DNA of 11,954 bases from Anaerolineaceae bacterium (GTDB lineage: Bacteria > Chloroflexota > Anaerolineae > Anaerolineales > Anaerolineaceae), in NCBI GenBank assembly GCA_028714615.1, contig JAQTMA010000122.1, positions 1-11,954 of the forward strand. The letters run 5' to 3'. Positions within the stretch are counted from its first letter, which is position 1. Every line of letters begins with the position of its first letter. The position numbers were made by a program, and so were the translations under genes. Below are positions 1,879 through 6,332 of this stretch, one piece after another. The notes under the pieces are model-generated. The model searched no databases, had not been told where the DNA came from, and worked only from the letters and a program-made list of their open reading frames with translations.

Positions 1879-2355
1879 TCAGACAGTAATTTCCTCAGCC
1901 GCGGCGGGAAGGTCATAGCCGAGCTGGCGGAGATGTTTCTTCAAGTCGATCAACGACTTGCGGCCAAATCCTTCCACTGCGAGAAGTGCATTCTCGCCCT
2001 GGTTGAGTCGATCGAGCACCTGGCCAACGGTTGTCAGGCCAGCTTTGACCAAAGCATCGGTTGGACGATTTCCTAACCCTATTTCAGCTACGGGCCGAGC
2101 AGGGGAGGTGCGCTCGTTCTCACGGGCGGATTGCTGGTCGACAAAGCTCTGGCGGGCTTGTAGCTTCTTGTAGAAGCGGTCCACCTGGCCTTCGATGTCG
2201 ATCAAACGCTGCTGTTGGCCGGTAAAGAATGGATGACACTTGGAACAAACTTCTGTGCGGATTACCTTGCGGGTAGAACCCGTAGTCCAGGTATTCCCGC
2301 AGGCGCAGATCACCTGTGCATCCGGATAGAACGTTGGGTGAATGCCATTTTTCAT
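1879..2355 (-). CDS. rpmE: Ribosomal protein L31 (bL31, zinc type) with C-terminal alpha-CTD-like domain
   Basis: Residues 1-70 are bacterial L31, a 50S protein near the intersubunit bridge: the start MKNGIHPTFYPD is typical, C17-x-C19 and C37-x2-C40 form the zinc-type (C+) set, and HPFFTG follows. L31 normally ends at about 65-90 residues, whereas this frame reaches 158. After a polar linker (about 71-86), residues 87-150 closely follow the RNA polymerase alpha C-terminal domain: RPV, then NRPTDAL, AGLTTVGQVL, GFGRKSL and a final LKKHLRQLG helix. By eye, the positions matching E. coli alpha R265, G296, K298 and S299 are kept as R97, G131, K133 and S134; N268 and E302 become D100 and D137. 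One uninterrupted frame joins both parts. AAAGGA lies about 12 nt before ATG 2355. L31 identity is very secure; the alpha-CTD homology is strong by pattern, its function unknown. Confidence 0.93.
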   Translation of the reverse strand: MKNGIHPTFYPDAQVICACGNTWTTGSTRKVIRTEVCSKCHPFFTGQQQRLIDIEGQVDRFYKKLQARQSFVDQQSARENERTSPARPVAEIGLGNRPTDALVKAGLTTVGQVLDRLNQGENALLAVEGFGRKSLIDLKKHLRQLGYDLPAAAEEITV

Positions 2356-2443: not shown

Positions 2444-2722
2444 TTATCCAGCCGCCGGTTCAGTTATTTCAGCCGGGACAACATGGACGCGTTTTTGGCC
2501 GTTCGGAAGGGTCTCGAAAACCACCACACCATCCGAGACCGCGAACAGGGTATCGTCCTTACCAATATCGACATTCGCACCGGGTTTAATATGGGTACCC
2601 CGTTGGCGAACCAGGATGTTCCCTGAAATCACAATTTCGCCGCCATATTTCTTTACACCCAGGCGTTGGCCGTTTGAATCACGGCCGTTACGAACAGAAC
2701 CACCACCTTTTTTATGCGCCAT
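2444..2722 (-). CDS. rpmA: Ribosomal protein L27 (bL27)
   Basis: This 92-residue 50S subunit protein has an N-terminal tail that reaches towards the peptidyl transferase centre and contacts tRNA. The start [16 protein letters not shown] and the following [11 protein letters not shown] are diagnostic, as is [19 protein letters not shown] in the middle. The protein begins directly at MAHKKGGGS, so there is no cleavable N-terminal extension of the kind removed by the Prp protease in Firmicutes. GGAG lies 8 nt before the ATG. Only 5 bp separate it from rplU, the usual bacterial rplU-rpmA pairing. A gap of 88 bp without a recognised promoter or terminator separates it from rpmE, which is most likely on the same transcript. 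Confidence 0.98.
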
Positions 2723-2727
2723 GTTTG

Positions 2728-3045
2728 CTACTCCACAGAAATTGATTCGATCTTCAGGCGGGTATATTTCTGGCGATGTCCTGTCTTGACCCGGTAGCGC
2801 TTCTTGGGGCGATACTTGAAGACAATCAGCTTGGGACCCTTGGTTTGCTCCACTACTGTGGTCATCACCCGTGCGCCCGATACCAGCGGCGTTCCAACGG
2901 AAACCGATTCTCCGTCGACAAACAGCAGAACGTCCATCAGTTCCACCTGCTCACCGGCCTGCAGCGGCAACACATCGACTTCGATGGTACCACCCTCGGC
3001 GACGCGAAACTGTTTGCCGCCGTTTTCAATAATCGCATACTTCAT
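2728..3045 (-). CDS. rplU: Ribosomal protein L21 (bL21)
   Basis: This 105-residue 50S subunit protein binds 23S rRNA. The start [15 protein letters not shown] is typical, and the C-terminal part has the [18 protein letters not shown] stretch characteristic of the family. The frame is open to 3156, but ATG 3045 is the right start: it gives the normal family length and has GGAGAG a few bases upstream, whereas the extra 37 residues would be translated 5' leader. The gene is first in the rplU-rpmA-rpmE unit and follows a perfect consensus promoter and a leader of about 110 nt that can fold into hairpins. Confidence 0.98.
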
Positions 3046-3162: not shown

Positions 3163-3191
3163 ATTATACCGGCCTAATCCGAGTCTGTCAA
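3163..3191 (-). promoter_or_regulatory. Perfect sigma-70 consensus promoter for rplU-rpmA-rpmE
   Basis: Read on the minus strand, TTGACA (3191-3186) and TATAAT (3168-3163) are separated by exactly 17 nt, an exact match to the housekeeping consensus in both boxes and spacing. AT-rich sequence just upstream (about 3215-3197) resembles an UP element. Transcription should start near 3156-3157, giving a leader of about 110 nt before rplU. The position, right after the selB stop, marks the start of a separate, highly expressed unit. Confidence 0.88.
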
Positions 3192-5153: not shown

Positions 5154-6332
5154 TTAGCTGGAGTGATTGAAGGTCTTTTCGTAAGTAGCCATCCACTCAT
5201 GCGCCAGGGTCAATAAGGCTTGCAAGCGTTTCTCTGTTTCTTCATTAATCAAGACGATCGCATCTTGCAACTCCTGGGTAGCATCTTCCAATCCGGCAAA
5301 TCGCCCAATGATCTTCTCGAACTGGCGTCCCACATCCCGTCCTTGTTCTTCGTGAGCGATGGAATAATTTGTCCACCGTTTCTGATCGTCTGCTTTGAAA
5401 GAGGTCCAATCCTGACGGAAGCGGTCTTCCGATAATCGCTGCATCTCGGTGATTTCATTGATCCGTCGCTCGATACGATTGGTGACCTCATCCAAGGCAT
5501 CCTGGGAGTGTTTCACAGCTCGGTGAGTAGCATCCAAACTTTGAAGTTGAGTATCCAGCCCGGATGCCCGTTTCTCAACTGCTTCGAAACGCACCAACCA
5601 ATCTTTCCAGGCTCTTTCGCGCTCAGCCTGGATGAGGGTTTGTTTTTCAAGGAAAGTAGCCTGGGCAGCGCGGCGTTCATTTTCCGCGACAGCCAGTTCA
5701 CTCATGCGGGTTTCGAGCTTGCGTAATTGGTCGGAGGTAAGATCTACTTTCCCCCGCTGTTCTTCTGTCCGTTTTCGCAAGGCAGAGACTTCACCCAGCA
5801 GATCATTCAAGCGTTTATTTTCTGTTCGCTGCCCTTCTTCAAGCAGCCGCAACATGCGCTTATACTCATCGTCATTCCTACGGTTTTCCACCACCTTAAC
5901 CCCGGTCTCTTCGATGAGGCGGGTTAAGCGGTAGTCCTCTTCTAACCGGGCCTGAACTGCCTTTTTGAGCTCGGGAATGGGATCCAATCCCTTCCTGACC
6001 TCATTAATCGATTTGGTCAGGGCATCAATTTCCACACGGCGCACCTTTTCAGTCTCGCGTTCGTGTTCGCTGCGTAACCTCTCAATCGCTTCCAGGTTAC
6101 GATTCGCATCCACCCGAATCTGAACAAGGTTACCTTCCAGGGAATCAAGCCGTGAAAGGCTAGCCGCCAGACGAGAGATTTCCCCACTAACCTGCTTGAT
6201 CCCTTGGCTGAGCGCCGGTAGCCCCCCTTCCATTTCGGCTATGCGCTTCTCCAGGGTGGCGATGGCGGTTTTATCTCGGCGATGTTCGTCATCCAGCCAC
6301 TCCAAACGCTTGATGATTTGTTCCAGGTCCAT
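5154..6332 (-). CDS. Long coiled-coil protein of unknown function
   Basis: I do not recognise a family. The 392-residue product is almost entirely charged heptad-like helix from residue 1 to about 300 (for example MDLEQIIKRLEWLDDEHRRD, and repeated LEKR, LRKL and IERRIN patterns). It has only three prolines (39, 118, 120) and no cysteine. There is no signal peptide or membrane segment, so it should be cytoplasmic, probably a rod-like homo-oligomer or scaffold. The C-terminal part is richer in aromatics (W309, W320, Y323, W380), hinting at a small folded end. It lacks P-loop or SMC head motifs. AAAGGA lies 6 nt before the ATG and an extended -10 promoter lies about 50 nt upstream. selB begins 17 bp after its stop, so the two probably share a transcript, but a functional link to selenocysteine insertion is only a guess. 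Confidence 0.8.
   Translation of the reverse strand: MDLEQIIKRLEWLDDEHRRDKTAIATLEKRIAEMEGGLPALSQGIKQVSGEISRLAASLSRLDSLEGNLVQIRVDANRNLEAIERLRSEHERETEKVRRVEIDALTKSINEVRKGLDPIPELKKAVQARLEEDYRLTRLIEETGVKVVENRRNDDEYKRMLRLLEEGQRTENKRLNDLLGEVSALRKRTEEQRGKVDLTSDQLRKLETRMSELAVAENERRAAQATFLEKQTLIQAERERAWKDWLVRFEAVEKRASGLDTQLQSLDATHRAVKHSQDALDEVTNRIERRINEITEMQRLSEDRFRQDWTSFKADDQKRWTNYSIAHEEQGRDVGRQFEKIIGRFAGLEDATQELQDAIVLINEETEKRLQALLTLAHEWMATYEKTFNHSS

Follow-up and report, generated by a model that had tools for sequence, protein, structure and literature searches.

A ribosomal protein bL31 fused to an RNA polymerase alpha-CTD-type domain is fixed in a group of Chloroflexota

Introduction

Escherichia coli bL31 places its N-terminal domain on the central protuberance and its C-terminal domain on the 30S head; in the excerpted text of PMC9966373, the C-terminus passes uS13 and uS19 to reach uS14 and binds helix 41 (h41) of the 16S rRNA, with the last eight residues contributing to subunit association. 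The C-terminal domain (CTD) of the E. coli RNA polymerase alpha subunit, RpoA, uses R265 and N268 to bind the DNA backbone and minor groove; according to excerpts of the same report (PMC11434276), the N268D substitution lowered lacZ expression, and N268A and N268W abolished UP-element activation. Hairpins of the GhG type contact DNA via backbone amides (PMC3783174, in excerpt).

Here we describe a gene that joins these two systems, found in the window, the whole 11,954-nt stretch of Anaerolineaceae DNA that was analysed. Compared with the zinc form of bL31 (rpmE, bL31A; PF01197), its product is alike in residues 1-65, in the four cysteines and in being encoded by a single gene, and it is extended at the C-terminus by a longer helix and a folded domain of about 65 residues. 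Compared with the RNA polymerase alpha-CTD (PF03118), this added domain is alike in its profile score above cut-off, in its fold, and in largely keeping R265 and G296; it differs in following bL31 without an alpha N-terminal domain, in lacking a complete six-residue DNA-contact set, and in a fixed K/R at position 305. A ribosomal protein that bridges the subunits has thus acquired part of the transcription machinery and retained it across whole bacterial orders. We found no published description of an L31/alpha-CTD fusion in the open-licence PMC literature; the architecture is already visible in databases, as Pfam assigns both domains.

Domain composition of the fused protein

The initial annotation reported an L31/alpha-CTD fusion at 1879..2355. 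Its coordinates are correct and both Pfam profiles score above cut-off; the strand, which it did not give, is minus. The open reading frame (2355..1879) encodes 158 residues, and the plus strand over the same stretch contains stops. Ribosomal_L31 (PF01197) matches residues 1-65 of the product (1.9e-25, 89.3 bits, cut-off 27), the NCBIfam bL31 models cover residues 1-69, and all four zinc-ligand cysteines (C17, C19, C37 and C40) are present. A Pfam check of the C-terminal residues, suggested with the annotation, bears out the second domain: RNA_pol_A_CTD (PF03118) matches residues 79-143 with 29.4 bits on the whole protein and 28.6 bits on the last 74 residues alone (cut-off 23.8). The NCBIfam rpoA models also match the C-terminal part, far under their full-length cut-offs, and a PDB sequence search with the last 74 residues returns 20 sequences at E <=1, all of them RNA polymerase alpha (best E 4.3e-4). 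The C-terminal domain has the alpha-CTD fold; the AlphaFold2 model of the fused protein (pTM 0.41) does not fix the relative orientation of the two domains. Set against helix-hairpin-helix (HhH) domains, such as the Rad51/Dmc1 N-terminal domain and HHH_5, the window protein matches the HHH_5 profile at E 0.067 and 14.1 bits, under the cut-off of 27. The window gene encodes bL31 plus a domain that is homologous to the alpha-CTD by profile and fold.

Table 1. Features of the fused L31 gene and its upstream neighbourhood in the window.
Feature	Position	Strand	Basis
rpmE: bL31 fused to alpha-CTD-type domain, 158 aa	1879..2355	-	ORF and profiles
bL31 domain, residues 1-65; four cysteines C17, C19, C37, C40	2161..2355	-	PF01197 1.9e-25, sequence
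Connector, residues 66-84; modelled helix spans 57 to 82	2104..2160	-	AlphaFold2 model
alpha-CTD-type domain, residues 85-150	1906..2103	-	
GhG hairpin G129-F130-G131, RpoA positions 294-296	1963..1971	-	alignment with RpoA CTDs
Last-helix basic stretch K139, K140, R143, RpoA positions 304, 305, 308	1927..1941	-	alignment
rpmA (bL27), upstream neighbour	2444..2722	-	ORF
rplU (bL21), first gene of the group; start 3045 picked by eye	2728..3045	-	ORF, gene order
sigma-70-type promoter-like site before rplU, 12/12 consensus bases, 17-nt spacer	3163..3191	-	sequence

Distribution and copy number

A search for the same architecture across genomes, also suggested with the annotation, shows that the fusion recurs. 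When relatives' contigs were searched and the best 80 of 582 relatives were analysed, the top 35 loci encoded full-length fusions of 152-175 aa, all titled as Chloroflexota groups, and the remaining 45 encoded L31s of 65-108 aa. A draw of 400 genomes from the phylum gave an L31 match in 397, and 40 of the matches listed reach at least position 145 of 158. Order-level searches from genomes G001, G378 and G246 covered 218 genomes (121, 56 and 41, respectively) and found L31 in 196 (106, 53 and 37); in 22 of the 218, L31 was not found at 1e-15. The CTD is present on L31 in 195 of the 196 L31-positive genomes (106, 52 and 37), a count that includes G460, where the gene is split on two contigs, G541 and G582, where it begins at a contig start, and G565, where the match ends at 135/158. 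In the single L31-positive genome without the CTD the contig stops, and the match with it, after profile position 78, and none of the 196 has an unfused L31 as its sole L31. The G378 order was taken whole (56 genomes) and has no genome in common with the G001 and G246 draws; these two share no genome with each other, yet could be one order. A frameshift artefact or a one-off event was rejected on these counts (35 of the best 80/582 loci and 195/196 order genomes), and the fusion is lineage-fixed in a group of Chloroflexota. A few rows of the phylum and order searches contain a stop codon within the alignment.

Protein searches give a similar picture: the best 120 of 7,879 matches to the fused protein all carry both Pfam labels, one of them being the window's own protein. 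A zinc-less form also exists, in that two fused L31s (L149:1-444 and L150:1-444, from genomes G150 and G378) keep the CTD and have lost the zinc-ligand cysteines. The best 120 of 2,044 protein matches to this form are all labelled L31, 101 of them (our own count) also carry PF03118, and some are named Candidatus Promineofilum. Thirty L31s without a CTD from the same phylum (L151-L180) are 66-138 aa long, and in several the site of the CTD is taken by a low-complexity tail that is acidic or rich in Lys/Arg. Such charged tails, in unfused Chloroflexota and Patescibacteria L31 alike, share with the fused form the attachment point after a VDRF-type helix, several of them being Lys/Arg-rich; unlike it, they are of low complexity and, by eye, without a recognisable folded domain.

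Each of the 40 fused genomes was inspected for further copies. The fused L31 is the sole PF01197 match above cut-off in 40/40, with a second, below cut-off, in G343, so that a paralogue beside a normal L31 was rejected for these genomes. All 40 also have a separate frame of RpoA length (322-367 aa) whose CTD match is stronger; 30 of these frames were confirmed as RpoA, and 10 were assigned from their length and score. A misplaced RpoA tail was rejected on this ground. The L31 CTD itself scores above the PF03118 cut-off in 39/40, the exception being G246 at 21.7 bits. One fused genome of the order searches has an extra short unfused L31 match (G498:C19:415-627), which is a paralogue or contamination.

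Origin and selection

A 16S tree sets 11 fused genomes apart, with a support of 0.999, from 11 unfused ones and from E. coli; E. coli is the only outgroup, and the genomes come from outside the order searched from G246. From this separation we infer a single gain of the fusion. The L31 CTDs cluster with a support of 0.41, or of 0.73 when the cluster includes one bactofilin-like domain, values too weak for a claim of descent from the host's RpoA.

Sequence pairs were compared for rates of change. The CTD has a higher pN than the bL31 part in 10/11 pairs and a lower one in L007/L008, and its dN/dS is 0.04-0.14 in the 8/11 pairs where it could be computed. By these measures the CTD is under purifying selection, weaker than that on the bL31 part. 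It is conceivable that the domain is a neutral passenger, fused without a role and not yet lost, as it evolves more rapidly than the bL31 part in most pairs and as an unfused L31 suffices elsewhere in the phylum. The low dN/dS values, the presence of the fusion in 195/196 genomes, and three positions that are basic in 75/75 CTDs speak against such a passenger, which we regard as scarcely credible.

Residues kept and changed relative to the RpoA CTD

We aligned 75 distinct fused L31 CTDs (the window's, 35 from loci and 40 from whole genomes, with one duplicate removed) with 30 RpoA CTDs from 30 of the 40 fused genomes. The N-termini of L105 and L108 were left untrimmed, for which reason L108 fails the cysteine count; the CTDs of both are unaffected. 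The sequences are related by descent, and the counts that follow are therefore not independent events. The DNA-contact set of R265, N268, G296, K298, S299 and E302 is complete in 30/30 RpoA CTDs and in 0/75 L31 CTDs. R265 is found in 68/75 L31 CTDs, G296 in 73/75, K298 in 46/75 and S299 in 47/75, compared with 30/30 RpoA CTDs at each position. The main losses are at N268 (11/75 vs 30/30), where the residue is acidic in 49/75 L31 CTDs, and at E302 (3/75 vs 30/30), where the replacement is mostly D or A. The window protein keeps 4/6, exactly as first annotated: R97, G131, K133 and S134 are kept, and N268 and E302 are replaced by D100 and D137.

Two features set the L31 CTDs apart from those of RpoA. 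Position 294 is G in 71/75 L31 CTDs and N in 30/30 RpoA CTDs, completing a GhG hairpin that in the window protein reads G129-F130-G131. In addition, K/R occurs at 304, 305 and 308 together in 75/75 L31 CTDs and 0/30 RpoA CTDs; singly, RpoA is basic at 304 in 27/30, at 305 in 0/30 and at 308 in 17/30. Basic residues are thus common at 304 and 308 of RpoA as well, and 305 is the one clear novelty. The mean domain charge is +1.2 for L31 CTDs and -1.0 for RpoA CTDs. The interval between VDRF and position 265 measures 35 residues in 71/75 proteins, 33 in 3 and 36 in 1.

These counts do not sustain the expectation in the initial annotation that the domain would work on UP elements and activators as the alpha-CTD does, given that the contact set is complete in 0/75 L31 CTDs as against 30/30 in RpoA and that position 268 is acidic in 49/75; the E. 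coli effects of N268D, N268A and N268W, as excerpted from PMC11434276, weigh the same way. The retention of R265 and G296 nevertheless suggests that the L31 CTD likely retains some nucleic-acid binding.

A proposed role on the 30S head

The location of the E. coli bL31 C-terminus, together with the near-fixed connector, implies that the added domain should lie on the 30S head. Four features favour a structural role, with the domain anchored on rRNA or a ribosomal protein: the lost DNA-contact set, the GhG hairpin, the basic helix and the single gene copy. We propose that the captured HhH-type module would be no transcription factor and would serve to anchor bL31's C-terminal arm (bridge B1b) to the 30S head. 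This is a tentative reading, which we consider quite possible. A Chloroflexota ancestor would have gained an alpha-CTD-type domain at the C-terminus of its sole bL31, and the fusion would have become fixed. The promoter-DNA contacts may then have been given up, N268 giving way mostly to D/E and E302 mostly to D/A; the domain would have acquired the GhG hairpin, and three positions of its last helix, including a new one, would have become basic without exception. A helix from bL31's 30S-binding tail would hold the added domain at a near-constant distance, so placed that it could clamp the rRNA backbone or a ribosomal protein near uS14/h41 and strengthen bridge B1b. We infer that the domain would be present in ribosomes at this location, with an RNA contact and a bridge role. 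Were the role structural, a DNA-binding domain would have been remade as a ribosomal domain, and a folded element added to bridge B1b.

For a matching change in rRNA, 16S sequences were found in 12/18 fused and 11/20 unfused genomes; with G126 (a 1,244-nt match) and second copies left out, 11 fused genomes were compared with 11 unfused, using assumed helix limits. No matching h41 change was found, h41 being 55-56 nt in the 11 fused and 55-57 nt in the 11 unfused genomes, and the lengths of h41, h42 and h43 do not separate the two sets. Helices 33, 39 and 40 vary more among the unfused 16S, with no expansion confined to the fused. Under a filter of at least 10/11 fused and at most 2/11 unfused, 13 head positions separate the sets, none of them within 1241-1296 (h41); positions 1224 and 1367 are T in 11/11 fused vs 2/11 unfused. 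Helix 39, under the same assumed limits, is 23-26 nt in all 22 Chloroflexota 16S compared (L181-L191 and L194-L204) and 38 in E. coli.

The absent h41 change across these 11 and 11 genomes counts against the anchor reading, as do the faster change of the CTD than of the bL31 part in 10/11 pairs, the basic helix being only partly new, and the retention of R265 and G296 in most CTDs, which could still bind DNA. The fold might instead be used for protein contact only, as a docking site for an assembly, hibernation or regulatory factor. Alpha-CTDs bind many proteins, for example Spx in 1z3e, and a similar domain occurs on a membrane protein resembling bactofilin, for which a nucleic-acid partner is less to be expected. 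On the other hand, basic residues occupy the positions that look exposed and are most conserved, which suits nucleic acid better, and we consider a docking site unlikely.

It has also to be asked whether the ribosome-borne CTD docks RNA polymerase, NusA/NusG or adjacent DNA and so tethers the polymerase to the 30S head. In favour are the domain's homology to a polymerase module and its expected place on the 30S head (PMC9966373, in excerpt), the binding of E. coli RNA polymerase core to the 30S subunit according to the excerpted PMC5655137, and a PF03118 domain on NusA, which Pfam reports in one fused genome and which was read by eye in another. Set against this are the DNA-contact set, complete in none of the 75 L31 CTDs, and a near-fixed spacing instead of a variable tether; the CTD, S14 and L31 go unmentioned in PMC5655137. 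Tethering of this kind strikes us as decidedly unlikely. If the domain did reach RNA polymerase, coupling would be hard-wired: by way of a core ribosomal protein, the 30S head would permanently carry an arm of polymerase origin in contact with RNA polymerase, its factors or its DNA, a picture that seems to us quite improbable.

Gene neighbourhood and possible autoregulation

The genes rplU and rpmA precede the fused L31 gene on the same strand in 35/35 fused loci, and thymidine kinase and phosphoribosyltransferase homologues lie downstream in 29/35, some of the other loci being near a contig end. The rplU promoter with an AT-rich upstream element that was initially annotated is present, with 12/12 consensus bases at 3191-3163 and A/T-rich sequence upstream of it. 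This strong promoter-like site, together with repression by E. coli bL31 of its own mRNA (PMC10931766, in excerpt), would suit a free fused L31 that uses its CTD to bind the DNA of its own promoter or the RNA of its leader. In the excerpted text of PMC10931766, the known bL31 repression uses the N-terminal segment on the rpmE leader in gamma-proteobacteria, which makes autoregulation through the CTD less likely; the DNA-contact set is lost in the L31 CTDs, and Rfam at gathering scores found no family in the window. We judge such autoregulation very unlikely. Further upstream, the window encodes a 392-aa coiled-coil-like protein (5154-6332, minus strand) that overlaps the selB start and has no Pfam match above cut-off; its homologues lie upstream of rplU in 8/35 fused loci.

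Other proteins carrying alpha-CTD-type domains

Alpha-CTD-type domains were also seen on other proteins. NusA of the fused genome G150 (L215:1663-3693, minus strand) carries PF03118 above cut-off on its C-terminal side, and NusA of the fused genome G378 (L216:814-2871, plus strand) carries an alpha-CTD-type domain in the same region by eye. The former resembles the fused L31 in bearing such a domain on another gene-expression component of a fused genome; it differs in being non-ribosomal, and its domain has a mean identity of 0.30 to the L31 CTDs. A 442-aa bactofilin-like membrane protein in genome G349 (L217:1182-2507, minus strand) has PF03118 at its end and a Bactofilin match just below cut-off, and G174 has a similar match. 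As this protein's domain falls among the L31 CTDs in the weakly supported tree, the module may have moved. Two proteins of 278 and 268 aa (L218:452-1285, minus strand, and L219:1002-1805, plus strand) have an N-terminal alpha-CTD/HhH-type domain followed, by eye, by a HEAT-like region.
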